A DNA stretch of 64,000 bases from Bacteriovoracaceae bacterium. GTDB lineage: Bacteria > Bdellovibrionota > Bacteriovoracia > Bacteriovoracales > Bacteriovoracaceae. The stretch is taken from positions 1 to 64,000 of the forward strand of contig JABGXW010000051.1 in NCBI GenBank assembly GCA_018675575.1, written 5' to 3'. Positions 2,195 through 45,178 of this stretch are shown one piece after another (positions within the stretch are counted from its first letter, which is position 1; each line of letters opens with the position of its first letter). The notes under the pieces were generated by a model that was not told the origin of the DNA, ran no database searches, and saw only the letters and a list, made by a program, of their open reading frames with translations. A program made the translations under genes and the position numbers.

Positions 2195-2333
2195 AAGATT
2201 AATTCTTTACAGAGGAAGATGGCCATTGGTAAAAACCTTTATCTCGTAACCTAATGCCAAACAATTATTGAAGTGGCAAAAAGCTGTCGAGGCTAATTAC
2301 TTAAAAACTAATCTTTTTAGGAGGTTGCCTTTG

Positions 2334-2558
2334 ATGACTTTTGTCCCATCCCTATCGTATAATTCACAAGTCACGAGTAGTGATAATTTGCTCTTTAACA
2401 ATCGAATATGGAATATTGATGATGTTGTTCATTTCACTGGTTTTGCCAAGGGAACGATTTACAACATGACATCAAGACGAGAGATACCACATAGAAAACG
2501 TGGAAAGAAACTCTTCTTTATCCCAGATGAAATTTTGAATTGGATTCAAGAATCTTAA
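2334..2558 (+). CDS. excisionase-like MerR/HTH_17 DNA-binding protein
   Basis: The 74-residue product carries a winged helix of the excisionase/HTH_17 type: IDDVVHFTGFAKGTIYNMTS is the helix-turn-helix, then PHRKRGKKLFF forms the wing and IPDEILNWI the last helix. Such proteins bind DNA next to attachment sites and direct excision, or regulate the integrase. The ATG at 2334 is chosen because AGGAGG lies nine bases before it; a longer frame from 2268 lacks a ribosome site. The gene is followed after 46 bases by a tyrosine recombinase on the same strand, which supports a role in recombination. A plain transcription regulator is the alternative. Confidence 0.75.
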   Translation: MTFVPSLSYNSQVTSSDNLLFNNRIWNIDDVVHFTGFAKGTIYNMTSRREIPHRKRGKKLFFIPDEILNWIQES

Positions 2559-2604
2559 CTGATTCAAACCTTTCAAACTCACGGGACATTAAGGAGAACT
2601 TTTC

Positions 2605-3780
2605 ATGAATAAAAAAGATTATTCAAAACTATCGAAACATAGAGGAATCTATAAGAACAAGAAGACTGGACGCTACCTTGCTGTAAAAAAGATAAAGGGA
2701 AAACAATTCTCAGAATCTTTTGACAACGTTAGAAGTGCTCTGCATTGGCGCAATACCTTTGATGGAATCAAGATTAAAAGGAAAGTTTGGCAAAAGACTT
2801 CCCCCACTCTTTTAGAGATATGGGAATCAATGCGAGAACTTCACTTTCCTACTCTTGAAGGAAGTACCATCGCGATTTGGGAAAGGCGTTTTAAAGTTTT
2901 AGAGGGCCTGTATCGAGTTCATATGGAAGACTTTACTCCATCAATCATAGATGAATGGATCAAAGTTTCCAAAGCTCACTATATAAAACTTAAAAATAGT
3001 AAACGCTACAATTTGAGAAATGAGCTTAATCTACTTGGAACTGTTTTTAGATGGTACAGAAACGATCCAGAAATTGGAGACTACAAGTTTGTATCTCCGA
3101 TCCTAGACCGACACAAAAAGTCCTGCATCATAAAAGAGCTTCCTGTGAGAGATAAGAAGATCTCACCAGAAGATGCTTTAAAGTTCATTAATTGTCTTAC
3201 TCCTCTTTATCGCGATCTTGCATTACTTCAGTTTTTAACAGCTTCAAGAATTAGCGAAGTTGCAGGAATTCAAATTTCAAATATTGATTTAGATAAAAAA
3301 GAGTTAATGATTAAAGAGTGTTGTGTCTGGGACCCTAAAAATAAGGTCTTTCAATATTTAAAGCTTTACCCTAAGAACAAAAGTGTTCGCTACTGTTTTA
3401 TTAATGATCTTCTTTTAGAGATCATTCAAAACAGGTTAAAAGAGAGACACCCAAAGAGTGAATTTCTTTTTCATATTAATGGTAAACCTTTGAACTACTG
3501 CACAATTCAGGTCAACTTTAGAAAGGCTCAGCGAGAGGCCGGTGTTAAGCATACGGGAACTCATATCCTTAGACATGGTATGGCAACCTTTGTTAGAAGC
3601 ATTACACGCTCCTTAGATGCCACCATGGCCATGACAGGCCATAAAGACATTAAGCTTGCCGATCACTATTCCAGTATTGGCCGAGAAGTACAAAAAGAGA
3701 CCTCGCTTTTAGTTGAAGAACGCTTAAAAAAATTTCAAGGATTAGAGAATGTTCTTTCATTTAATAGAAAGATTAGCTGA
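2605..3780 (+). CDS. tyrosine recombinase/phage-type integrase
   Basis: This 391-residue site-specific recombinase cuts and rejoins DNA through a tyrosine intermediate. The C-terminal catalytic domain (about 180-375) shows the full set: Arg215 in TASRISEVAG, His320 and Arg323 in HILRHG, His346 in TGHKD and Tyr355 in DHYSS. The N-terminal part is a basic arm-binding region followed by a core-binding SAM-like domain. The start ATG at 2605 follows AAGGAGAACTTTTC. It lies 46 bases after the excisionase-like gene and just before mutM, so the element may be integrated between housekeeping genes. The full length and intact catalytic residues suggest a working enzyme. No transposition or phage structural genes are nearby. 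Confidence 0.93.
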   Translation: MNKKDYSKLSKHRGIYKNKKTGRYLAVKKIKGKQFSESFDNVRSALHWRNTFDGIKIKRKVWQKTSPTLLEIWESMRELHFPTLEGSTIAIWERRFKVLEGLYRVHMEDFTPSIIDEWIKVSKAHYIKLKNSKRYNLRNELNLLGTVFRWYRNDPEIGDYKFVSPILDRHKKSCIIKELPVRDKKISPEDALKFINCLTPLYRDLALLQFLTASRISEVAGIQISNIDLDKKELMIKECCVWDPKNKVFQYLKLYPKNKSVRYCFINDLLLEIIQNRLKERHPKSEFLFHINGKPLNYCTIQVNFRKAQREAGVKHTGTHILRHGMATFVRSITRSLDATMAMTGHKDIKLADHYSSIGREVQKETSLLVEERLKKFQGLENVLSFNRKIS

Positions 3781-32938: not shown

Positions 32939-35900
32939 ATGGCACCATCAAATTCTTTAATTTCAAAACTCATCGTTTTAGTCCTGATTTGTTTTACAAC
33001 TCAGACCATGGCAGAGGAGATGTACAATGTTTCCCAAGGCAGGATTAATGCGCAGGACAATACTGACATAACCAAAGAGGCCATGGCGGGGTTAGAGAAT
33101 CATAAAAAAAGAAATGGAGGAAAGATAGTTCTCGCGAGTTTTAAACCTGTCGTAATGCAAGAGCTCTATAGCTATCTTGAGCATGAACATATTTCTCGAC
33201 TAGAATTGACAAAAATTAAAATGGAATATGAACGTCTCGAAGCAAGCTCAAGAGGTTTATCCCAGAAAGAAATAGAAAAGAGCTTGATAAGTCTTTTTGA
33301 AAACATGATGAAGTATGTGAATAACTCATCACTTCAATGTGTAAAGCAGGGGGCAACTTGTAATGATTGGGGATGTTGTAAAGGTTTAACATGTGCCGCT
33401 GTTCCTGCAAGAGCTAGAGAGAATATGGGGCAATGTAGAAGATTTAATAACACCTGTAATAAAAGTTCTGATTGCTGTTCTGGGGTATGTGGTGAAGGAG
33501 TTAACGGAAAAAAAGTTTGCGCCGTTGTTCGAAGATGCTATAGGCCCCAACGAGCAAATGCTTCGTGCGATAAGAATCCCACTTGTGAAGTAGGGAGTTG
33601 TGAGGTTTACAATGCGGGCACAACTGGAATGGGGGAATGTTTTCAAAATAAAAACTCATGTAAAAGCGACGATCAATGTTGTTCAGCAAAATGTAGTAAT
33701 AATAAATGTGTTCCACATTATACTTGTAAAAACTGTGTCGGACCAGGAATTAAACCCCGACGAGCTGAAGTATGCTGTGAAGGGCACTACAAGGATTCTA
33801 AGGGGACATGTATTCCGATGTTAGTACCATTTGTTTTAAAGGAACATCAAATGAAAAAAAATCTGTCGCTTTTAGGAATTTTTGTCTCGTTAATATTCGG
33901 TGATGTCGCTATGGCAGAAACTCAGCAAGAAGCAAATTCAAGAATTAAGAGCAAGATTCAAAATGATTCTAGTCTAGTGGATGAAGAGCATATGAAAGGC
34001 CTGACTGGCATGAGTAAGAGAGTCAGAGATAATGTTAAAATTACTGACTTAGATGATTTTAAAGATCACCAACTTGAAACATTCTCGACTAAGGCCGGTA
34101 CCGACTTTAAAACCTGTAGAATTGACTTAAAGGCAGATTACCTACTTAACCTTAAAGCAAACTCTGAACAGAATATGCTTGGTATTGAAATGGCGGTGCT
34201 TGCTTTTGAACATATGGTTTTAGGCGAAGGGACAGTCGATTATTGGACAGAAAGTATTGGAGGTGCTGCCTCTACAAATATTCATGCAAGAGCTGCAGTG
34301 GTTGCTCAAAAACATGCAGATCAAAGAACTCAAATCTTTGATGAGTTAGATGATTGGCAATTAAAGATGGAATGTCTTTGCTGGGATAGTAAAGGTTATC
34401 CTAATTTAGCTCCTGATATTCAAGCAAAATATGCTGGGGCGGGGTGGCCTGTTTCTAATGTCCCTGTCAGTAAACCGGAAGAGGGTACTAAGACAGAAGG
34501 AACAAGTGCGGGAAGACCAACATCTGCAGGAGCAGATGCACAATGTCCTAATGAAATGAATGCATACCTTGCCTACAGAGCAGCAAATCCAAACACTGAT
34601 GACGAAGACTACGCTGGAGACGCATCCGGTGTGAAGGGAAAATTCTTAATTACGAAGTGGACAGATCTAAATAGAAATTTTTACACAAGAGTGTATCTCA
34701 GTAACTCTTCAACTTTTCAAGAGATCTACTCATTAGCATCATGGTTAGAATCAAATAATTGGGGGGAAAATACCACTGCAAGCTTTCAAATAAATAGATT
34801 TACAACAAAAGAATGGAAAAATAATCCTAATATTTATGCCGCTGTAACTTTAGCACTTATCGCTGCTGGAGTTGTCGCCATTTCTGGAGGGTTTGCAACT
34901 GTAAGTATGGCAGCTTTATGGGGACTCGGAATTGGTAGTATGATGTTAATTGGAGTCCTAGGAGCGATGAAAGGAGCATGGGAATCACGTGCCCCTTATT
35001 TACAAGATGAATTTATTAAAACATGGAAATGCGGGAAGAAATCTTATTGTTCAGATTTTAAAAGAAGATTAATTCTTCCAAAATCAAAAGTATGTGGAGA
35101 TAAATACGTTTCCGGGAATGGATGTATTAAAAACTTTTTGGCCTATACATTAGACGGTGAAGTTAGGCATTTAGTAGATCCATTGGTGCCAGTCGGTGTA
35201 GATAAATCTGTACTTTTAAAGGATGGAACTCCTTTGGCGTCAAGAATGTCTACCGCAGCAAGTAATGCAATAGAAAAACTAAAAACTATAGACCAGGATC
35301 GTTGGCGAAAAGAGAAGCGTTGCCAGGATACTTTCATGAACACGGTTGTATCACCGTTGCTCCCTAATGTTCCTGGTAGTGATATAGTAGAAGGAGTTAT
35401 AGGCAACGCGCCAGGAATGAACACGCCAGTAGCGGTCCAATGTCCCCGATTACATACTTCCTATCTGAAGAAACCGTTATTAGATTCCCTTTCAACCGGT
35501 GAGTTTGCACCCATATTAAAAACACCTTATGCTAACAATTATGAATTAACTGCTGCTATGATTAAAACAATCAAAGATTCCGCCAAAGCATACGCTACGA
35601 ATGCGAAATATCTTTTTTCAGATATGCAAGAAGATTTAAATAAATTTGCAGATTACTCGTTTGATTATCATTTTGTTTGGCCAAGGCTTTCGCAGGCTGG
35701 AATGATCGCTTATCCGATGCCCGGTTTGATTTCATATTTTATGCTTATGGCAGAAGCTATGAATGAAAAACAAGATGAGAACTTTGGCAACGTTGAGGGA
35801 TATAATCAATTACATGCTCAACATTTACAGGACTTAATCAATACAATTAATGGTTCTAATAATATGGAAGAAGTAAATGTGGGAATCGATGGTATTAATT

Positions 35901-36598
35901 CTCAATTAGATGCTTTTAACACTGACCTGGCAAATACACTGGCCTTTAATGGTCTCAATCTAAGTGCAGGAGATGGCATCGATAGCTCAAAGGCTAACAT
36001 AACGGGAGGGAATGGTTCCGCTGCAGAATTGGATTCTTCTTTAGGAGCTGGTTCCTTAGATCCAGATTCAAGCTTGGGAAGAGCTGCCTCGGCCTTTAGA
36101 AAAAATAGAGAAATTTTGGATAAGCAAAGAGAAAAGCTCTCAGTTTTCACTGCCGCAGTGGGAGCAAAGAAAGCAAGCGAATTGACTGCTAATAAAAAAG
36201 CATTTACAAAGAGTTTCTTTAGCCCTCTTGGTGCAGGCGGAGGCTTAAACTTAGCATCTACCGGTGCAGCGAGTGGTGGCCCAAGTCGACCGACTGATAG
36301 TAAAGTTAAAAATGAGAAAAGAGACCTCTCCCAAAGCTCATTGAACGCAAGGCCACCAACACCAAATTATAATTTAAGTTATGATACTGGTGGAGGATCA
36401 CGATCAAATTATAAAGCTGCAACAGAAGCTGCGCAAAGTAAAATAAAAGAAGCGATTGAATTTAGAAATCAAAAACCTGCACAATTTGAAAAGCAGGAGG
36501 GCGATACATTATTTAAAATTATAACGAGGTCATATATAAGGTCTTATGATAAATTATTAAATAAGAGAAAGAAAACTATAATTGATGAAGATTATTAA
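32939..36598 (+). CDS. large Cys-rich exported protein with internal signal peptide
   Basis: A single frame of 1219 residues that looks like two proteins joined. Part one (1-304) has a signal peptide (LVLICFTTQTMAEE) and two knottin/Dickkopf-like cysteine modules: CVKQGATCNDWGCCKGLTC, then CNKSSDCCSGVCG, and CKSDDQCCSAKCSNNKC. Part two starts at Met305 with its own signal peptide (KKNLSLLGIFVSLIFG, cleaved near AMAE) and a Shine-Dalgarno before it, and runs 915 residues with a hydrophobic pair near 640-680 (ALIAAGVVAISGG, GIGSMMLIGVLGAMKG) and a Ser/Gly-rich tail. No stop separates them, so a fusion, a lost stop codon, or two overlapping start sites must apply. It heads a tight gene run with an acyltransferase-like gene and two polyamine enzymes. 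Confidence 0.75.
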   Translation: MAPSNSLISKLIVLVLICFTTQTMAEEMYNVSQGRINAQDNTDITKEAMAGLENHKKRNGGKIVLASFKPVVMQELYSYLEHEHISRLELTKIKMEYERLEASSRGLSQKEIEKSLISLFENMMKYVNNSSLQCVKQGATCNDWGCCKGLTCAAVPARARENMGQCRRFNNTCNKSSDCCSGVCGEGVNGKKVCAVVRRCYRPQRANASCDKNPTCEVGSCEVYNAGTTGMGECFQNKNSCKSDDQCCSAKCSNNKCVPHYTCKNCVGPGIKPRRAEVCCEGHYKDSKGTCIPMLVPFVLKEHQMKKNLSLLGIFVSLIFGDVAMAETQQEANSRIKSKIQNDSSLVDEEHMKGLTGMSKRVRDNVKITDLDDFKDHQLETFSTKAGTDFKTCRIDLKADYLLNLKANSEQNMLGIEMAVLAFEHMVLGEGTVDYWTESIGGAASTNIHARAAVVAQKHADQRTQIFDELDDWQLKMECLCWDSKGYPNLAPDIQAKYAGAGWPVSNVPVSKPEEGTKTEGTSAGRPTSAGADAQCPNEMNAYLAYRAANPNTDDEDYAGDASGVKGKFLITKWTDLNRNFYTRVYLSNSSTFQEIYSLASWLESNNWGENTTASFQINRFTTKEWKNNPNIYAAVTLALIAAGVVAISGGFATVSMAALWGLGIGSMMLIGVLGAMKGAWESRAPYLQDEFIKTWKCGKKSYCSDFKRRLILPKSKVCGDKYVSGNGCIKNFLAYTLDGEVRHLVDPLVPVGVDKSVLLKDGTPLASRMSTAASNAIEKLKTIDQDRWRKEKRCQDTFMNTVVSPLLPNVPGSDIVEGVIGNAPGMNTPVAVQCPRLHTSYLKKPLLDSLSTGEFAPILKTPYANNYELTAAMIKTIKDSAKAYATNAKYLFSDMQEDLNKFADYSFDYHFVWPRLSQAGMIAYPMPGLISYFMLMAEAMNEKQDENFGNVEGYNQLHAQHLQDLINTINGSNNMEEVNVGIDGINSQLDAFNTDLANTLAFNGLNLSAGDGIDSSKANITGGNGSAAELDSSLGAGSLDPDSSLGRAASAFRKNREILDKQREKLSVFTAAVGAKKASELTANKKAFTKSFFSPLGAGGGLNLASTGAASGGPSRPTDSKVKNEKRDLSQSSLNARPPTPNYNLSYDTGGGSRSNYKAATEAAQSKIKEAIEFRNQKPAQFEKQEGDTLFKIITRSYIRSYDKLLNKRKKTIIDEDY
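33838..33853 (+). promoter_or_regulatory. internal ribosome binding site and ATG
   Basis: AAAGGA (33838-33843) lies seven bases before an in-frame ATG at 33851 that begins a full signal peptide. This spacing is optimal, so a separate 915-residue protein may be made from here. Confidence 0.65.
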
Positions 36599-36617: not shown

Positions 36618-37718
36618 TTGTATCAGGACAAGGATAGCCGAATTCAAAACTTTGATATCTTGCGAGGATTTTTTATCTTCCTGGCATTATGGCAGCATTT
36701 TAGCTACTACCTCAATGTTTGGTACATTGATTTCTTTAAAGAAAATGCTGTTTTAGATAAAAGCTATCATATCCATAAAATGATGATTGGATATCTTTTA
36801 CCTGTAGATGACTTTTCTCATTGGGCAGCATGGTTTTTTACCCCTTGGGTCTCTCAAATTTATCTCACCTTGGCAGCTTTTAATTTAGCAAAACGTTCAC
36901 AAGGTGATTTTAAATTAGTTTATGGCCTTAAACTCCGGACCTTTGGACTTATTTTGATCTTTTTTATTTTTGAAAACTTCATTGTCTCACCAAACTTTGG
37001 AGAATCTATATCATTTTATCCTATTATGGCATGGATGATTATTTTATCAGCTCTAAGCTATCTCTATCAAAAATTTGGAGTTAAGGGTATATGGGGATTA
37101 TTAATAATTAGCTTTACAAGATGGACGTTACCAGAACTCCCCTTTATCTCTGGTTTAGAGTATTGGATGCAACAAAATGTCCATTCTGCCTATGAATTTG
37201 ATGCTCAGATAGAATATTTCTTAACATCAGGATGTCTGGGATTTTTTCTTGGATTTTATTATTATCATCGTGACTGGGGACAGAAGAGAGAATTCTATTT
37301 AATAGGATCAGGTTTTCTTCTTTTTATGATCTGGTATTTTTTTGGATTACCATTTAGTGTCAACTATCTTGATGTCTTTGAATCAGAACATGATTTGGCA
37401 AAGACATTTCTTGGTTCACTAAGTATCCTTGGAATTCAAATGATGATTTTACCTCTTTTTCTTTTTATGGAAAAAAAACATAAATTAAAAATTAAAATAC
37501 CAATGTTTACATGGATTGGTGTGCATTCATTGAAACTTTTTGCTCTTCATAGAATTCTGTTTGTACATATTATAGTTCCTGTCATGTTACTTATTGTTAC
37601 AATAATAAATAGGCCCCTGATCATCACATGGTGGATATGTTGGCTTTCTACAGGAATTGTAATGTTAGTAGGCTATTTTATAAATAAAACAAAAATACAT
37701 AATCTTATCTTAAGGTAG
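36618..37718 (+). CDS. multi-pass acyltransferase-like membrane protein (DUF1624/DUF418-type)
   Basis: This 366-residue protein has about nine or ten hydrophobic segments. The N-terminus has IQNFDILRGFFIFLALWQHF, the D-x-x-R-G start typical of DUF1624/acyltransferase-3-like membrane enzymes such as heparan glucosaminide N-acetyltransferase. The matched His is in ALWQHF. Such proteins move acyl groups across the membrane onto sugars; the substrate here is unknown. The start is TTG at 36618 with GGAG nine bases upstream. It follows the Cys-rich gene by 19 bases and precedes the AdoMet decarboxylase fusion by four, so one operon is likely. Confidence 0.7.
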   Translation: MYQDKDSRIQNFDILRGFFIFLALWQHFSYYLNVWYIDFFKENAVLDKSYHIHKMMIGYLLPVDDFSHWAAWFFTPWVSQIYLTLAAFNLAKRSQGDFKLVYGLKLRTFGLILIFFIFENFIVSPNFGESISFYPIMAWMIILSALSYLYQKFGVKGIWGLLIISFTRWTLPELPFISGLEYWMQQNVHSAYEFDAQIEYFLTSGCLGFFLGFYYYHRDWGQKREFYLIGSGFLLFMIWYFFGLPFSVNYLDVFESEHDLAKTFLGSLSILGIQMMILPLFLFMEKKHKLKIKIPMFTWIGVHSLKLFALHRILFVHIIVPVMLLIVTIINRPLIITWWICWLSTGIVMLVGYFINKTKIHNLILR

Positions 37719-37722
37719 TAAA

Positions 37723-38814
37723 TTGGATATCCGCTCACAACATTTATTGGTAGACTTTTGGTTAAAAATGCCAATCTCAGAGCATATGATAAATAAACTT
37801 TGCCAAGTGATTGAAAAAAACTTAACTGTCATTAAAAAAACTGAACATAAGTTTGATCCAATAGGACAAACAATTCTTTTTGTTTTAGCTGAGTCTCATT
37901 TCAGTTTACATACCTATCCAGAACATAATTATATGACCATGGACATCTATGTCTGCAATATGGAAGTAGACTTAGAATTTATTTTAAAAGAAATAGAAGA
38001 TGTCATTCCTCTTTCTCATAAAGAACATAAATTCATCACAAGAGGTATCTCAGAAGAGTTTCAAGAATTATCAATGGGTGAAAACAAGGCGATTATCAGA
38101 AGTAAAATTCTCTATAGTATTACATTTGTTTTGGCTGCTTGCAGCATTATTTATGAATTATTATTGGCCCAAGCTTTGTCCAGTACAATGGGCAACACAG
38201 CATTAAGATACAATATTACAATTGGTCTATACATTGCTTCCATGGGAATCGGTGCTTTATTTTTTAACAAAATAATTAAATCAAAACTTAGCGAAAAACT
38301 TATTAGAATAGAAGTTTTTCTTGCTATCGTAGGTGGTTTAGCTCCCATTATGGTATTAATTAATGATAGCTTTATTAATTTGTCTTCAAATTTTATGAGC
38401 TTCAACTTCTTAGGCCTTGTTCCCCAAACAATTCTTTCAGGTATGAACCATAGCTTAATTATATTAGTAGGCTTTTTAAGTGGATTAGAACTGCCTCTTC
38501 TTATGGAGCTTGGAAAAAAAATAAAAAGAGATATGGGAAAAAAAGTTTTAGCTATGGATTATTTGGGCTCTCTTATTGGTGTCGTTTTGTTTCCATTGTT
38601 TATATTCCCTAATTTGACATTATTTACTATTGGTTACTTAATTGCCTTTATTAATTCAAGCGTTGCTTTGTATTTAGGCCATTTCTATAAATTAGACAAT
38701 AAAAAACTTAAAATGTGTTGTCTCATTTTAAGTTGTATCTTCTTTCTGTTCTTATGCTTTTCAGAGCAGATTAATAATATTATTTTAAGAAAAATATATT
38801 TTTATAACTTATAG
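37723..38814 (+). CDS. speD: S-adenosylmethionine decarboxylase fused to membrane domain
   Basis: AdoMet decarboxylase makes the aminopropyl donor for spermidine. Residues 1-120 match bacterial SpeD/SpeH: AESHFSLHTYPEHNY and MDIYVC hold Glu57-Ser58, the self-cleavage site that gives the pyruvoyl group, plus His63 and Cys78 at the same spacing as in B. subtilis SpeH (63/68/83). A region of about 235 residues follows with six or so membrane helices (ILYSITFVLAACSIIYELLL onward). That region resembles the N-terminal membrane part of the next gene. A membrane-anchored AdoMet decarboxylase is unusual. The start is TTG at 37723 with AGG seven bases upstream. The next gene starts eight bases after this one. 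Confidence 0.85.
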   Translation: MDIRSQHLLVDFWLKMPISEHMINKLCQVIEKNLTVIKKTEHKFDPIGQTILFVLAESHFSLHTYPEHNYMTMDIYVCNMEVDLEFILKEIEDVIPLSHKEHKFITRGISEEFQELSMGENKAIIRSKILYSITFVLAACSIIYELLLAQALSSTMGNTALRYNITIGLYIASMGIGALFFNKIIKSKLSEKLIRIEVFLAIVGGLAPIMVLINDSFINLSSNFMSFNFLGLVPQTILSGMNHSLIILVGFLSGLELPLLMELGKKIKRDMGKKVLAMDYLGSLIGVVLFPLFIFPNLTLFTIGYLIAFINSSVALYLGHFYKLDNKKLKMCCLILSCIFFLFLCFSEQINNIILRKIYFYNL

Positions 38815-38822
38815 GTGTTTTT

Positions 38823-40523
38823 TTGAAGAAAGAATTAACTGTAAAAGAAATTTTATGCATAACAATGATACTTTCATTTTGCAGTATTATTTACGAACTT
38901 ATCTTTGCAAATACCTTATCATTGTTAACAGGCTCTTATATCTGGTGGCATAGTTGGACTATAGGATTTTATATTGGTGGTCTTGGCATCGGAGCGATTA
39001 AATCTGGTAAATTGCTTAATTCGTTCAGAGAATTATATTATGTAGAATTACTCCTATCACTTATTGGTTGCCTCTCTGTTATCTATATTTTCTGTCTTCA
39101 TCTTATTTTTAAATCATCAGATTACATGTCATATCTCGGAAATGATTTTTACTCAGCTTCGTATGTTCAAGTTAGTTTCTATATGAATGTATTTTTCTTT
39201 TGTCTAGTACAATCAATTACTTTAATAATAGGGATTCTTTCTGGTTTTGAAATCCCTCTCTTAATCAAACTAATGAAAGAAAAGACAGGCAAAGATAAAG
39301 AGAATTTAGTTCTTGGAGTCAATTATATAGGAACTTTATTTGGTACATTAATTTTTTCTTTTATACTTTTACCTAAACTCGATATAATTTATACCTCTGT
39401 TATTGTCGCTACTTTAAATTTACTTGTTTGTCTCTACTTACTTATTAAAAGACGAGTTAAGAGATCTCCTGCATTCATTATACCAATTACTTGTGTTATT
39501 CTCGTTTTGGTTTTTGTTGGCAAAAATGAAAATTTAATTCAACAGAATTATTTGAAAGTACGTTATCACGGCGATCGCGTTATAGCTAGAGACAAAAGTC
39601 AAACTAGAATTTTTCTAGAAAACCTTGATCAAATTCCAGACGTTCTTAGAATGAAATCACTTTATCAGTATATTGATTTTTTTGATATCGAGACTACCAA
39701 TAAAGAAACTGAAACGATTATGACTTTAGATGGAAATTTTCAATTTAGCTCTAAAACAGAAAGGTTTTATCATGAAGGTTTTGCTCATGTAGGATTAGAA
39801 CTCGTAGGGTTTATTCCCAAAAAGATCCTCATTCTTGGTGGTGGAGATGGCTTACTTATTAGAGAATTGCTCAAATATCCTGAAATTGAAATTATCGAAC
39901 AAATAGAATTAGATGATAAGATACTAAAGCTCGCAAAAAAGAAACCATTTCTTACAAAGTTAAATGAAAATTCATTATCAAACCCAAGAGTTAAGACTGT
40001 AATTGGTGATGGATTTCATTATATGAGAAATACTACAGAAAAGTTTGATGCTATTTTTATAGATTTCCCCTATCCCCGTAATTACAATCTTGCGAGGCTT
40101 TATAGTGTAGAATTTTATACTTATGTAAAAAGAAATTTAACGCCTAATGGATTTGTTATTTTAGATACTCCAATCGTTGAAAAGAAAACTTATACTAGTA
40201 AACAATATCAAGGTCGTATGATCGATAAAATGCTATTTTCATCATCAGATAAATACAATAATAATGTAATTTTAAGTACAATGTATTATTCCGGATTTAA
40301 AAGACTACTACCTTATAAAGTTGGGGAAGAATCTTTTTTAATTATGCATAATAGGGATAAAGAATTTCAATACCAGAATCTACTAAAGGCCAACTCTAAG
40401 TTTCAGAAGGTTTCCTCCAAAGATCTAGTTGAGATTTCTGGACAGAATTTTCCATATGAAATAAAGAAAAAATATATTAATTCCATTTTTAAACCTACAA
40501 TCTTAGGATTAAGTGATTTTTAA
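38823..40523 (+). CDS. speE: membrane-bound spermidine synthase-like aminopropyltransferase
   Basis: This 566-residue protein has an N-terminal membrane domain of about 230 residues (TMILSFCSIIYELIFANTLS, TIGFYIGGLGIGA) and a C-terminal Rossmann methyltransferase-like domain of aminopropyltransferase type. The cofactor loop is ILGGGDGLLIRELLKY near residue 340; IEQIELDD and the motif FDAIFIDFPYPRNYNLARLYS carry the acidic residues that bind donor and amine. It should move the aminopropyl group from decarboxylated AdoMet to putrescine or a related amine; the exact product (spermidine or another) is open. Start TTG at 38823 with AGGTG upstream. Its placement beside the SpeD fusion supports the pathway call. 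Confidence 0.87.
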   Translation: MKKELTVKEILCITMILSFCSIIYELIFANTLSLLTGSYIWWHSWTIGFYIGGLGIGAIKSGKLLNSFRELYYVELLLSLIGCLSVIYIFCLHLIFKSSDYMSYLGNDFYSASYVQVSFYMNVFFFCLVQSITLIIGILSGFEIPLLIKLMKEKTGKDKENLVLGVNYIGTLFGTLIFSFILLPKLDIIYTSVIVATLNLLVCLYLLIKRRVKRSPAFIIPITCVILVLVFVGKNENLIQQNYLKVRYHGDRVIARDKSQTRIFLENLDQIPDVLRMKSLYQYIDFFDIETTNKETETIMTLDGNFQFSSKTERFYHEGFAHVGLELVGFIPKKILILGGGDGLLIRELLKYPEIEIIEQIELDDKILKLAKKKPFLTKLNENSLSNPRVKTVIGDGFHYMRNTTEKFDAIFIDFPYPRNYNLARLYSVEFYTYVKRNLTPNGFVILDTPIVEKKTYTSKQYQGRMIDKMLFSSSDKYNNNVILSTMYYSGFKRLLPYKVGEESFLIMHNRDKEFQYQNLLKANSKFQKVSSKDLVEISGQNFPYEIKKKYINSIFKPTILGLSDF

Positions 40524-40591: not shown

Positions 40592-42043
40592 ATGAGAAAT
40601 TACATACTATTTTACATTAATGGCAAACGTCATGAAATCTATGGAGAAATGGCCTTTAGGCCATTATCAACATTTTTAAGAAAAGATTTAGGCCTTACAG
40701 GAACAAAAATTGTTTGCAGTGAAGGTGATTGTGGTGCATGCACAGTGTTAAATGCAGGTTTAAATGATATAGAAAATGGAAAACTTAGATATCATACTAT
40801 TAATTCTTGCATAAAATATTTACATCTATGTGACTTAAAACATTTTATTACTATTGAAGGTATCAAAGATAAAAACCTTTTAACTCCTGTTCAGTCGTCA
40901 ATGATAGAACATCATGGATCTCAATGTGGATTTTGCACACCAGGTTTCATCTGCACTTTAAGTTCGATGTCGGATGATTGTGTTTTGGATAAAAAACTAA
41001 TAACAGAAAAAAAGGTTAAAAATTATACAACTGGAAACCTATGTCGCTGTACTGGATATAAACCAATAATAAATGCAGGCATGAACATTGATTTGAAAAA
41101 TTATAAAACTTTGTCACAAAGATATCATGACTCTTCAATGATAGAAGATTTTGAAAAGCATTCTCAAGTTCCTGTCGAATTAACAGGAGTAAATAAAAGA
41201 TTGTTCATACCTACTTCTGAAAATGATGCAGCTAAGTATCTAAGTGATAAATCAAATCAATGTAAAATTGAGGCTGGTGGAACAGATCTTGGTGTTGTTC
41301 AAAATAAATGCCATGGCATGATCATTGATGTTCTTTCCTTTGACTTAATTAAAAATAATAATAAAATTACCAAAAAAGATAATTCTTTCGAAATCGGACC
41401 AAGAGCAACTTGGAGTGAAATTGAAAAAGCACTATCTAAAGACTTTCCTGAGTTTTATAAACTTATTCATGTCTTTGCATCTCCACAAATTAAAAATGCG
41501 GGAACTTTAGTAGGAAATATTGCAAATGCTTCTCCAATTGGAGATGGGATTCCTTTCCTACTGGTAGGAAATGCTTCACTTGAACTTACTAGTTTACAAG
41601 GTAAGAGAATGGTTTCAGTTGATAAATTTTACAAAGCTTATAAGCAAATGGATATGGAGGCGGATGAATTTATCTCAAAACTAATTATCCCTATTCCATC
41701 CAAAAATACATTAACAAAACTTTATAAGATCTCCCTTCGAAAAGATTTAGATATATCCGCGGTCACATTTGCTGGAAGTTTTGTACTAGAAAATAATAAA
41801 TTATCAAATATTAAAATTGCGTATGGAGGAGTTGGACCAACGGTACTTCGGCTAAAAGAAGTTGAGCAGGCATTAGAAAATTCTCCATTTGAATTGGCAA
41901 GCTTTGAAAAAATTTTACCCCTAGTTGAAAAAGAAATTAGTCCTTTATCAGATCATAGAGGATCAAAAGAATACAGACATCTTATCGCTAAAAACCTCAT
42001 GCTTAAGTGCTTCCATGAACTTTCCTCTGAGGTACGATCATGA
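40592..42043 (+). CDS. xdhA: xanthine dehydrogenase FeS/FAD subunit
   Basis: The 483-residue small subunit carries the electron-transfer cofactors of xanthine dehydrogenase. The first [2Fe-2S] site is CSEGDCGACTVL with a later Cys (SCIKY); the second is QCGFCTPGFI and NLCRCTGY. The FAD domain starts near residue 200 (KIEAGGTDLGVV) with AGTLVGNIANASPIGD as a dinucleotide loop. The enzyme oxidises hypoxanthine and xanthine to urate in purine breakdown, passing electrons to NAD or another acceptor. The gene overlaps xdhB by four bases. Its ATG has no ribosome site and follows a -10 box closely. Confidence 0.95.
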   Translation: MRNYILFYINGKRHEIYGEMAFRPLSTFLRKDLGLTGTKIVCSEGDCGACTVLNAGLNDIENGKLRYHTINSCIKYLHLCDLKHFITIEGIKDKNLLTPVQSSMIEHHGSQCGFCTPGFICTLSSMSDDCVLDKKLITEKKVKNYTTGNLCRCTGYKPIINAGMNIDLKNYKTLSQRYHDSSMIEDFEKHSQVPVELTGVNKRLFIPTSENDAAKYLSDKSNQCKIEAGGTDLGVVQNKCHGMIIDVLSFDLIKNNNKITKKDNSFEIGPRATWSEIEKALSKDFPEFYKLIHVFASPQIKNAGTLVGNIANASPIGDGIPFLLVGNASLELTSLQGKRMVSVDKFYKAYKQMDMEADEFISKLIIPIPSKNTLTKLYKISLRKDLDISAVTFAGSFVLENNKLSNIKIAYGGVGPTVLRLKEVEQALENSPFELASFEKILPLVEKEISPLSDHRGSKEYRHLIAKNLMLKCFHELSSEVRS

Positions 42044-44373
42044 GTCTAGGAAAAGATATACCTCATGATTCTTCTTATACACACGTGACTGGAGCATCAA
42101 ACTTTATTGACGATAGACCTCTTACCCACAAAGAAGTTTATGTTGGTGTTTTGGGTTCGCCAATTACTTGTGGAGTAATTGAAGAGATTGATTTCACTGA
42201 TGTCTTAAAGTTACCAGGAGTATTAGCTGGCTATACTAATAAAGATTTAAAATCAAATGTTTGGGGTACAATTGTCAAAGAGCAACCCATACTTGCCTTT
42301 GAAAAAGTAATGTATAGAGGAGAGCCCATCGCCCTCATAGCTGTGGAGAGTGAAGAGATCATTTTAGAAGCTTTGAAATTAATCAAGGTAAAATCGAAAG
42401 AATCTAAAGCAATATTATTATTGGATGAAGCAATTACTAATAAAGACTTTATTTATCAGGCCACACCTTTTACTCAGGGAAATTTTTCTGAAGCAATAAA
42501 GAAAGCGCCTCATAAAATAAAAGATTATTTTGAATGTGGTGGACAAGAACATTTCTACTTAGAAAATCATGCATCTTTAGCTTACCCATTAGAGCAGGGA
42601 CAGATAGAAGTTCACTCTTCATCACAACATCCCACAGAAACTCAACATGTAGTTGCAGAGGCATTAGGCCTCTCTTATCACCAAGTTGTTTGTGTTGTTA
42701 AAAGAATGGGGGGAGCATTTGGTGGCAAAGAAAGTCAAGCAGCGCCATTAGCCGCTATGGCCGCAGTAGTTGCTCAAAACTTGAATAGACCTGCCAGATT
42801 GATTCTCACAAAAGATCAAGATATGGAAATAACGGGCAAAAGACATCCATTTAAAAACTTTTATGAGGTTGGCTTTGATGATAATGGTAAAATATTAGCA
42901 TTTAAAGCTGAACTATTTGCGAATGCAGGATCATATACAGATTTAACTAGTTCCATACTAGAAAGAGCGATGTTTCATTTAGATGGCGCTTATTTCCTAG
43001 AGAACGTAGAAATTAACGGAACAGCAGTCAGAACAAACCTTCCTTCTAATACTGCATTTAGGGGATTTGGTGGACCTCAGGGGAATATGACAATTGAAGT
43101 GGCTATAGAAAAAATGGCCATGGTATTAAATAAAGATGCTCTCGAAATTAGAACTCTTAATTGCTATGGAGAGGGAAAAAGAAATAAAACTCCCTATGGA
43201 CAAGTTATTGGTTATAACCCTCTTCCAACTCTCTTCACTTCTCTTATTGATCAAAGTAATTATATAAAACGCAGAGTTGCAATAAATAAATTTAATAAAG
43301 AAAGTAAAACAAAAGTTCGTGGTCTTTCTCTAACGGCCACAAAGTTTGGTATTGCTTTTACTGCAAGATTTCTCAATCAGGGGAATGCTTTAGTTAATGT
43401 TCACGTGGATGGAACGGTACAGGTCTCCACTGGTGCTACTGAAATGGGACAGGGAGTGAATACTAAAATTTCTCAAGTTGTTGCCCATGCGTTTGGAATA
43501 GATGCCGTAGATGTTAATATGATGCCTACATCAACTGAAAAAAATCATAATACCTCACCTACTGCGGCATCAAGTGGATCTGATATTAATTGTGCCGCCG
43601 CCGATATTGCCTGTCAGGCTATTGTAAGAAACTTGAAAATTGTTGCAACTAGATATTTTGCAAATGAAAAGTTTGATGATTTACATGAATACATAATCGA
43701 TGAATCTACTAATACAGATTCAATACAATTACAAGATGGACAAGTTTCTTGTAGTAAAACTAATAAAACGGAAACTTTTTCAAAAATTTGCCAAATTGCC
43801 TATTTGAATAGAATTTCTCTTGGAGAATATGGGTTTTTTAAAACTGAAAATATTGGATTTGATAAAAATAAAGGAATAGGAACACCTTTCAATTATTTTA
43901 CAAATGGTGTCGCTGCAACTGAAGTAGAGATAGATCGTTTTACAGGTGAATGCAAAGTATTAAAAACTGATATTCTTATGGACCTCGGAAGAAGAATAAA
44001 TCCAGGTATTGATTATGGCCAAGTGAGTGGTGCCTTTATTCAGGGCATGGGATGGGTAACTCAGGAGTCATTATTTACAGATGCTGAAGGTGTTTTAAAA
44101 ACTCATTCTCCAACAACTTATAAAATTCCAAATATACAAGATACACCTAGAGAATTTAATATTAATTTTATTGAAAACCATGAAAATACTCAAGCTATTC
44201 ATCGCTCAAAGGCCGTCGGGGAACCCCCCTTTGTCCTTGGCATTTCCTGTTTCACGGCCATCTACGACGCTCTCAGATGTTATAATAGTTCTATGAATAA
44301 AGATCTCGACTGCAGATTAACCTCACCGGCTACAAACGAAAAAATACTCATGACCATGTATGGAAATAATTAG
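42040..44373 (+). CDS. xdhB: xanthine dehydrogenase molybdenum subunit
   Basis: The 777-residue large subunit binds the molybdopterin cofactor and the purine. Visible family motifs include GGQEHFYLE, MGGAFGGKES, AFRGFGGPQG, the Moco contact region GATEMGQGVNTK and the terminal SKAVGEPPFVLG, whose Glu is the catalytic base in xanthine dehydrogenases. Its ATG overlaps the xdhA stop, showing coupling. Its stop at 44373 is followed at once by xdhC. Length is normal. Other purine-like hydroxylases in this superfamily are possible, but the linkage with xdhA and xdhC supports xanthine dehydrogenase. Confidence 0.95.
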   Translation: MSLGKDIPHDSSYTHVTGASNFIDDRPLTHKEVYVGVLGSPITCGVIEEIDFTDVLKLPGVLAGYTNKDLKSNVWGTIVKEQPILAFEKVMYRGEPIALIAVESEEIILEALKLIKVKSKESKAILLLDEAITNKDFIYQATPFTQGNFSEAIKKAPHKIKDYFECGGQEHFYLENHASLAYPLEQGQIEVHSSSQHPTETQHVVAEALGLSYHQVVCVVKRMGGAFGGKESQAAPLAAMAAVVAQNLNRPARLILTKDQDMEITGKRHPFKNFYEVGFDDNGKILAFKAELFANAGSYTDLTSSILERAMFHLDGAYFLENVEINGTAVRTNLPSNTAFRGFGGPQGNMTIEVAIEKMAMVLNKDALEIRTLNCYGEGKRNKTPYGQVIGYNPLPTLFTSLIDQSNYIKRRVAINKFNKESKTKVRGLSLTATKFGIAFTARFLNQGNALVNVHVDGTVQVSTGATEMGQGVNTKISQVVAHAFGIDAVDVNMMPTSTEKNHNTSPTAASSGSDINCAAADIACQAIVRNLKIVATRYFANEKFDDLHEYIIDESTNTDSIQLQDGQVSCSKTNKTETFSKICQIAYLNRISLGEYGFFKTENIGFDKNKGIGTPFNYFTNGVAATEVEIDRFTGECKVLKTDILMDLGRRINPGIDYGQVSGAFIQGMGWVTQESLFTDAEGVLKTHSPTTYKIPNIQDTPREFNINFIENHENTQAIHRSKAVGEPPFVLGISCFTAIYDALRCYNSSMNKDLDCRLTSPATNEKILMTMYGNN

Positions 44374-44374
44374 T

Positions 44375-45178
44375 ATGGAAAAAAACTTTGAAAAATTTTC
44401 TAAAGTTTACATGGAGTTATTACAACAGAAAAAAGACTTCATTACTGCTCAGATTGTGGATACAAAAGGGTCTTCTCCTCAAGATAAAGGAGCAAGAATT
44501 ATTATCTGTAATAACGAGATTTGTTTTGGAACAGTGGGGGGAGGAAAACTTGAGGCCTTTGCTATCAAAACAGCAAACAATCTATGTCTAGACAAATATA
44601 TCAAGAACAAATTGGTTAAAGTTAATCTTCAAAAAGATTTAGGTATGAGTTGTGGAGGAGAAGTTTCTCTTTATTTTGAACTGGAGCAACAATCCAAGAA
44701 TTTCAAAGTTAATATATTTGGAGCGGGCCATGTTTCACAAGAATTAAATCATGTTTTATCGCGATTAGAATGTTCTATTACTTGTATTGATAATAGACAA
44801 GAATGGCTTGATAAATTAGCTCCATTAAAGATAAAAACGATTTGCTTAGAGAAGATGGAAGATTATGTCGATAACTGTGAGCAAGATAGCTTCAATGTCT
44901 TAATGACTATGGGACATGCTACAGATGCTCCTATTTTGGCCAAATTTCTCCTCTCAGGCAATTTTTCATACTTAGGAGTCATCGGGTCAGAGTCCAAGGC
45001 CCAAGGCCTTAAAAATGATTTGAGAGAACTTGGATTAAATGAAGAGTTGCTAGATAACTTTCATTGCCCAATTGGACTCAATATTGGTAGTAATTCACCT
45101 GCAGAAATAGCTATCTCTATAGTAGCAAGCCTGCTTGAAAATAGAGATCTCATTTTTCAAACTGATAAAAGGAAATAA
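44375..45178 (+). CDS. xdhC: XdhC-type molybdenum cofactor insertion factor
   Basis: XdhC binds and sulfurates the molybdenum cofactor and delivers it to XdhB. The 267-residue product has the Rossmann part with NIFGAGHVSQEL and CIDNRQEW, and the N-terminal half with DTKGSSPQDKGARI and FGTVGGGKLEAFAI, both typical; MTMGHATD and LGVIGSESKAQ also match. The ATG at 44375 is chosen, two bases after the xdhB stop; an earlier ATG at 44360 overlaps xdhB and would add five residues. One base separates it from coaD. Confidence 0.92.
   Translation: MEKNFEKFSKVYMELLQQKKDFITAQIVDTKGSSPQDKGARIIICNNEICFGTVGGGKLEAFAIKTANNLCLDKYIKNKLVKVNLQKDLGMSCGGEVSLYFELEQQSKNFKVNIFGAGHVSQELNHVLSRLECSITCIDNRQEWLDKLAPLKIKTICLEKMEDYVDNCEQDSFNVLMTMGHATDAPILAKFLLSGNFSYLGVIGSESKAQGLKNDLRELGLNEELLDNFHCPIGLNIGSNSPAEIAISIVASLLENRDLIFQTDKRK

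Follow-up and report, generated by a model that had tools for sequence, protein, structure and literature searches.

A SpeD-membrane fusion and its partner membrane aminopropyltransferase in Bacteriovoracia: probable subunits of one split membrane machine

Introduction

What does a bacterium do with an AdoMet decarboxylase (AdoMetDC, SpeD) that is built onto a multi-pass membrane domain and encoded next to a membrane-bound aminopropyltransferase? The question is raised by two adjacent genes in a 64,000-nucleotide stretch of DNA from a member of the Bacteriovoracaceae, hereafter the window. An earlier note, made from the sequence, took the pair for a membrane-tethered polyamine pathway whose two proteins carry matching domains and may form a complex. 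The shared domains, the unusual fusion and the likelihood of a complex have stood up to analysis, while a housekeeping role in polyamine synthesis has not. Two features that the note did not describe, a pair of conserved upstream genes and a link to the fused MFS-spermidine synthases (MFS-SpdSyn), bear on what the proteins may do instead.

The locus and its conserved operon

The window belongs to a 3.73-Mb draft genome, 92% complete (contig C160). Four genes are read in one direction, with intergenic gaps of 19, 4 and 8 bases, and encode in this order a Cys-rich secreted protein, an acyltransferase-like protein, the SpeD fusion (SpeD-TM) and the membrane aminopropyltransferase (TM-SpeE; Table 1). 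An AGG-type ribosome site lies directly 5' of both TTG starts, those of SpeD-TM and TM-SpeE. In each of the 11 further loci compared, two being truncated at contig ends, a homologue of gene 1 lies upstream of the fusion; 10 of the 11 also have a homologue of gene 2.

Table 1. Features of the operon, in window coordinates.
Feature	Coordinates	Strand	Basis and remarks
Operon gene 1: secreted protein, ~1200 aa, N-terminal Cys-rich repeats, no known family	32939..36598	+	19 bases to gene 2
Operon gene 2: multi-pass, transmembrane acyltransferase-like (HGSNAT-like fold)	36618..37718	+	Foldseek, LRG...QH motif
SpeD-TM-A fusion (SpeD-TM), 363 aa, TTG start	37723..38814	+	
AdoMet decarboxylase class 1b domain, residues 1-111	37723..38055	+	PF02675, alignment to 1vr7/1tlu
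Pyruvoyl Ser58 codon of SpeD-TM	37894-37896	+	His63 and Cys78 in same domain
TM-A 7-helix half-domain, residues ~128-346	38104..38760	+	NF002956, model helices, conservation; listed residues Y144, E145, Q150, R162, N164, E197, D215, E256, D279, Y280
TM-B-SpeE (TM-SpeE), membrane aminopropyltransferase-like, 566 aa, TTG start	38823..40523	+	PF01564, NF002956
TM-B 7-helix half-domain, residues ~7-233	38841..39521	+	Asn replaces TM-A Asp279
Aminopropyltransferase domain of TM-B-SpeE	39645..40520	+	D342 (GGGDG) and D414 kept; Cys absent from the last 318 residues
Tyr417 codon of TM-B-SpeE	40071-40073	+	Diamine-anchoring Asp in spermidine synthases

Gene 1 gives only sub-threshold matches to Pfam. 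Its mid-region contains an internal hydrophobic, signal-like stretch, MKKNLSLLGIFVSLIFGDVAMAE; homologues align through this stretch, so that there is no obvious fusion error in the gene. Gene 2 of the window has no Pfam match above cut-off, and a match to Acyl_transf_3/DUF418 in one of its homologues is also sub-threshold. Its structural model (pLDDT 87.0) finds, among the top ten PDB entries of a Foldseek search, nine labelled HGSNAT; all ten have probability 1.00. HGSNAT-type chains are the sole confident PDB matches (TMq 0.49-0.57), at weak E-values of 0.006-0.05. The LRG...QH motif is conserved and H27, the candidate for a catalytic His in the first helix, is invariant. As assigned from the fold alone, at these weak E-values, the protein resembles an acyltransferase. 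HGSNAT itself takes an acetyl group through a membrane and places it on an amine.

A set of xanthine-dehydrogenase-like genes lies directly downstream of the operon (40592-45178) and is common to two congeners only. Elsewhere in the window (2268-3780) two ORFs recognized by eye, one small and excisionase-like and the other integrase-like, are possibly the remnant of an integrated element. An Rfam search of the window gave no match, and promoter and terminator scans returned site counts no higher than in shuffles.

The two catalytic domains

The earlier note had judged the decarboxylase intact from Ser58, His63 and Cys78, and its judgement is borne out. The SpeD part scores 63.9 bits against PF02675 (cut-off 25) and 64.4 bits against the TIGR03330 equivalog, below the stricter cut-off of 75.65. 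The three residues align with S63, H68 and C83 of Thermotoga maritima AdoMetDC, which have been named essential (PMC10407285), and they are invariant among nine homologues. In the AlphaFold2 model of SpeD-TM (pLDDT 88.7) an AdoMetDC fold is followed by a helical bundle. T. maritima AdoMetDC structures are its best Foldseek matches (E 8e-8); the SpeD half dominated this search and left the membrane half without placement.

The transferase domain of TM-SpeE scores 102.8 bits against PF01564 (Spermine_synth; cut-off 22.9). Its donor-site residue D342, in the GGGDG motif, and the catalytic gate-loop residue D414 are invariant over 19 sequences. Judged by these residues, both proteins would be active enzymes. 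That SpeD-TM might be a pyruvoyl-dependent ornithine or arginine decarboxylase is less likely, since it is the sole SpeD found in the organism and any active transferase would have to rely on its AdoMetDC activity.

Two halves of one membrane unit

Residues 121-358 of SpeD-TM match positions 14-238 of NF002956, the membrane-SpeE model (E=1.9e-39), and residues 10-456 of TM-SpeE match the same model (E=1.6e-87; 294.1 bits, below the curated cut-off of 472). By these matches the membrane domains of the two proteins, TM-A and TM-B, are homologous far beyond chance. Profile comparison thus recovers the kinship between the SpeD-linked multi-pass domain and the membrane part of SpeE that had been proposed, and the C/S-S-I-I-Y-E-L and G-I-G-A motifs that had drawn attention to it are real, conserved and common to both domains.

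The relationship extends to the MFS-SpdSyn proteins. A TM-A profile matches each of four such proteins twice, once in the N-half and once in the C-half (i-E 5e-11 to 3e-5). One of the four is encoded in the window's own genome and scores 90.3 bits against NF037959 (cut-off 40); TM-SpeE, in a pair with one half per chain, reaches 23.9 bits, below that cut-off. Since the profile matches both halves, each 7-helix domain is the counterpart of a single MFS-like half, and SpeD-TM-A together with TM-B-SpeE looks like a split form of this architecture.

In a tree of 73 membrane halves the fused TM-A domains form one clade, and they lie on the opposite side of a branch from their TM-B partners (support 98/92). 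A stand-alone TM-A from a Bacteriovoracaceae locus (L077) is nested inside the fused clade, and the TM-B of an Omnitrophota genome branches at the margin of the A side. With several long branches in the tree, the positions of some tandem and stand-alone halves are uncertain.

The two sides differ at a fixed position. Residue 279 is Asp in 17 of 17 fused TM-A, 15 of 16 stand-alone TM-A and 12 of 12 single TM-transferases. Among the TM-B partners, 19 of 20 have Asn or Ser there, including all partners of fused TM-A. A repeated Asp/Asn asymmetry of this kind is what would be expected of an obligate heterodimer derived from a homodimer. Other polar residues within the helices (Y144, E145, E197, E256 and Y280) are invariant in TM-A across phyla.

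Distribution and related arrangements

The full fusion occurs in 17 of the 129 genomes of the order, spread over six genera, and TM-SpeE follows next to it in all 17. The named relatives that carry it belong to Bacteriovoracaceae, Halobacteriovoraceae and related Bdellovibrionota. A pattern scan of 84,980 species, one genome per species, found no fusion outside Bacteriovoracia; the scan used two peptide patterns and may have overlooked distant fusions. Nor did the literature searched yield a report of SpeD joined to a TM domain. These results agree with the suspicion voiced in the earlier note that the fusion is not standard. An origin as a mobile-element or phage gene was rejected, as no phage or plasmid record gave a match covering 80% of the fusion.

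Other arrangements of the same parts exist. In an Omnitrophota genome (L080) TM-A, SpeD and the TM-B-transferase are three adjacent, unfused genes. A Desulfobacterales genome (L076) has SpeD followed by a single TM-transferase. At L077 the stand-alone TM-A is followed by TM-B-SpeE without SpeD, and another multi-pass protein is encoded beside them. Since this TM-A, from inside the fused clade, has been kept beside TM-B-SpeE without SpeD, TM-A does more than anchor SpeD. Co-inheritance in 17 of 17 genomes, the unfused three-gene version in another phylum and the residue asymmetry between the A and B halves give good support to the proposed membrane complex of SpeD-TM and TM-SpeE.

Further stand-alone TM-A genes either overlap a TM-B-SpeE gene or lie directly against one, and some are near prepilin-type genes (PF07963). 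Such pairs (L045 4015-9654, L046 3887-8318, L047 and L048 1998-7974) have secreted proteins and multi-pass acyltransferase-like genes as further neighbours, and a link of the stand-alone pairs to pilus or surface modification is possible. In genomes of family f3 (L041-L044) a stand-alone TM-A gene and speD are read away from each other, and no transferase gene adjoins them; in G060 and G068 transferases of 534-536 aa are located elsewhere.

Topology and the side of the membrane

By hydropathy and the positive-inside rule, loops 2-3, 4-5 and 6-7 are rich in K/R and loops 1-2, 3-4 and 5-6 poor in them, counted as charge per residue. This pattern, taken with seven helices, predicts an N-in, C-out arrangement, which would place SpeD in the cytosol, where it has to be, and the transferase in the periplasm. 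The tandem MFS-SpdSyn proteins agree with this: in four of four the N-half is without helix 7 and only that helix, so that the second half would keep its orientation.

The Cys content points the same way. No Cys is present in the transferase domain (~317 residues) of 13 of 13 SpeD-TM partners, against 2-4 Cys in the soluble SpeE of related genomes (13 of 13). Among 318-aa stretches in the genome of the window, Cys is lacking from 1 of 56 in cytosolic-like proteins and from 6 of 24 in signal-peptide proteins; the latter are on average not Cys-free. Set against this, MFS-SpdSyn transferase regions have 2-3 Cys, and single-TM ones usually one. Together, the charge rule, helix parity and the Cys-free catalytic domain hint at a periplasmic transferase; helix 7, if non-spanning, would return it to the cytosol. 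We know of no precedent for the periplasmic use of decarboxylated AdoMet.

A cytosolic transferase is assumed by the alternative of synthesis-coupled export, in which a polyamine-like product is made inside the cell and exported by the TM-A/TM-B unit. The correspondence of this unit to the MFS-like part of MFS-SpdSyn and the membrane carboxylates conserved in TM-A would suit an exporter. However, both the placing of the charges and the helix parity speak for a C-out transferase, and the catalytic domain is Cys-free; we regard export as unlikely.

Relation to the housekeeping polyamine pathway

A separate soluble SpeE and another AdoMetDC are present in eight of the eight other fusion carriers checked, the second AdoMetDC being of the eukaryote-type class 2 in seven and of the E. 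coli type in one. Class 2 AdoMetDC genes (PF01536) beside a soluble SpeE are common in the family (L052-L064, soluble SpeE loci); class 2 enzymes occur in only some bacteria and were acquired from eukaryotes (PMC10407285). These carriers speak against reading the pair as nothing more than a membrane-tethered version of the cell's polyamine pathway.

The organism of the window offers a second line of evidence. Searches of its 92%-complete draft found no other AdoMetDC of PF02675, none of PF01536 and no PF01276 decarboxylase, and the sole PF02784 protein is LysA. The speD2 and speE genes are absent from their assembled syntenic site on contig C55, where both neighbours are present: only an unrelated 290-aa gene stands (L090 6430-7302) where a congener has class 2 SpeD and SpeE. 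At the speA-speB site (C19 10442-11688) 1.25 kb separates the flanks, against 5.9 kb in the congener, and both genes are absent. An assembly gap was rejected as the cause of either absence, since in each case the flanks are on a single contig and the DNA that separates them is too short. It seems from these sites that the organism has lost de novo spermidine synthesis yet keeps the operon intact. Family searches and synteny thus lead us to reject SpeD-TM/TM-SpeE as the housekeeping spermidine pathway: other carriers have separate SpeD and SpeE, and the window's organism has lost speA, speB, speD2 and speE.

The acceptor site of TM-SpeE differs as well. The diamine-anchoring Asp, three residues past the catalytic Asp, is Tyr417 here; the position is Tyr in nine of nine SpeD-TM partners and Tyr or Phe in partners of stand-alone TM-A. 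The gate loop accordingly reads DFPYP, against DFPDP in single-TM enzymes of related bacteria. The corresponding residue of PfSpdS, Asp199, binds the distal amine of putrescine and is described as invariant (PMC4356361), and Asp170 of the yeast enzyme is needed for accurate putrescine binding (PMC10146546). Outside this phylum the Asp is missing from single-TM enzymes too (L076, L078, L079), so that its loss does not go strictly with pairing. Its replacement by Tyr417 argues that the acceptor is probably not a plain diamine, although the loss of one Asp may still be compatible with a diamine.

Could the pair nonetheless make ordinary spermidine at the membrane, from imported putrescine and with channelling of decarboxylated AdoMet, as a substitute for the lost housekeeping pathway of the window's organism? 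The SpeD residues, the donor site and the catalytic Asp of SpeE are intact, and SpeD-TM is the only SpeD found there. Against this stand the full housekeeping SpeD and SpeE alongside the pair in all eight other carriers, the replaced distal-amine Asp, the failure to find a putrescine-making enzyme in the window's organism, and operon partners that point to the cell surface. Such tethered synthesis therefore appears improbable, and dedicated aminopropylation outside the housekeeping polyamine pathway is the better reading of an operon that lacks the diamine-anchoring Asp and has outlived speA, speB, speD2 and speE. Kept where the ordinary polyamine genes were lost, the pair probably decorates something other than spermidine, perhaps at an extracellular site.

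A model for the pair

Helical bundles on enzymes commonly act as anchors, and if the membrane domains here had a passive role of this kind, in anchoring or dimerisation and without transport, the fusion would only increase local concentration. This is very unlikely given the many intrahelical polar TM-A residues invariant across phyla and the stand-alone TM-A beside TM-B-SpeE in several lineages, where there is nothing to anchor.

We favour, as the probable explanation, that SpeD-TM-A and TM-B-SpeE are two subunits of one membrane machine, a split, SpeD-fused form of MFS-SpdSyn whose acceptor is neither a plain diamine nor bulk spermidine. What the sequences themselves display is one homologous half on each protein, the correspondence to MFS-SpdSyn, co-inheritance and a fixed Asp-A/Asn-B asymmetry. 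The TM-A and TM-B halves would pair into an MFS-like unit, SpeD would produce decarboxylated AdoMet right at this unit, on its cytoplasmic face, and the transferase would aminopropylate an acceptor other than a plain diamine and distinct from bulk spermidine.

A more tentative extension is that the donor crosses the TM-A/TM-B unit to a transferase facing the periplasm. The product might then be an extracytoplasmic amine, on or near the Cys-rich secreted protein, which the HGSNAT-like partner could acylate. Stated in full, and with the same reserve, this would be a transmembrane aminopropyl relay, in which cytosolic decarboxylated AdoMet is handed over by a TM-A/TM-B heterodimer for periplasmic aminopropylation of a protein, lipid or glycan that the HGSNAT-like partner may acetylate. 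If true, the relay would amount to AdoMet chemistry dedicated to surface modification, with no dependence on polyamines.

The split form can serve as a Rosetta stone for AdoMetDC/MFS-SpdSyn-like systems, since the maker of the donor sits on one transporter half and the transferase on the other. A carrier without the ordinary polyamine genes isolates the function of the operon genetically, and two questions become directly testable: the aminopropylated target and the side of the membrane. As far as we have searched, several features are new: SpeD joined to half of a transporter, the pairing of one half with the other at a fixed asymmetry, the unfused three-gene version, a carrier from which the ordinary pathway has gone, and the acyltransferase-like and secreted proteins as operon partners.

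Comparison with known systems

Li et al. 2019 reportedly found many bacteria in which AdoMetDC occurs together with MFS-spermidine synthase-like fusions of unknown product, and are said to have proposed a polyamine-independent role of AdoMetDC and a non-polyamine use of decarboxylated AdoMet. That system resembles the present one in associating AdoMetDC with MFS-SpdSyn-like proteins. It differs in that SpeD is separate and soluble there, whereas here one half of a split transporter carries it.

HGSNAT and related transmembrane acyltransferases share with operon gene 2 a predicted fold and the LRG...H motif, but identity is ~11% and no Pfam match rises above cut-off. The bifunctional SpeD-SpeE fusions of Pelagibacter likewise couple AdoMetDC and aminopropyltransferase physically; unlike the two-protein membrane pair described here, they are single chains that make spermidine or spermine, with no membrane part reported (PMC11107197).

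Spermidine synthase-like proteins linked to a 7TM or MFS domain are known (PMC11237479). Membrane aminopropyltransferases of the NF002956/PRK03612 type, with an N-terminal 7TM region, have the same TM family and the same TM-then-transferase order as TM-SpeE, and the 7TM-spermidine synthase of PspA operons is a comparable single-half type (PMC11237479). These enzymes have one TM half each, whereas here the second half comes from SpeD-TM. The fused MFS/spermidine synthases (NCBIfam NF037959) have, like the pair, two homologous membrane halves and a C-terminal aminopropyltransferase-like domain; the difference is that here the halves reside on separate proteins, with SpeD on the N-terminal partner.
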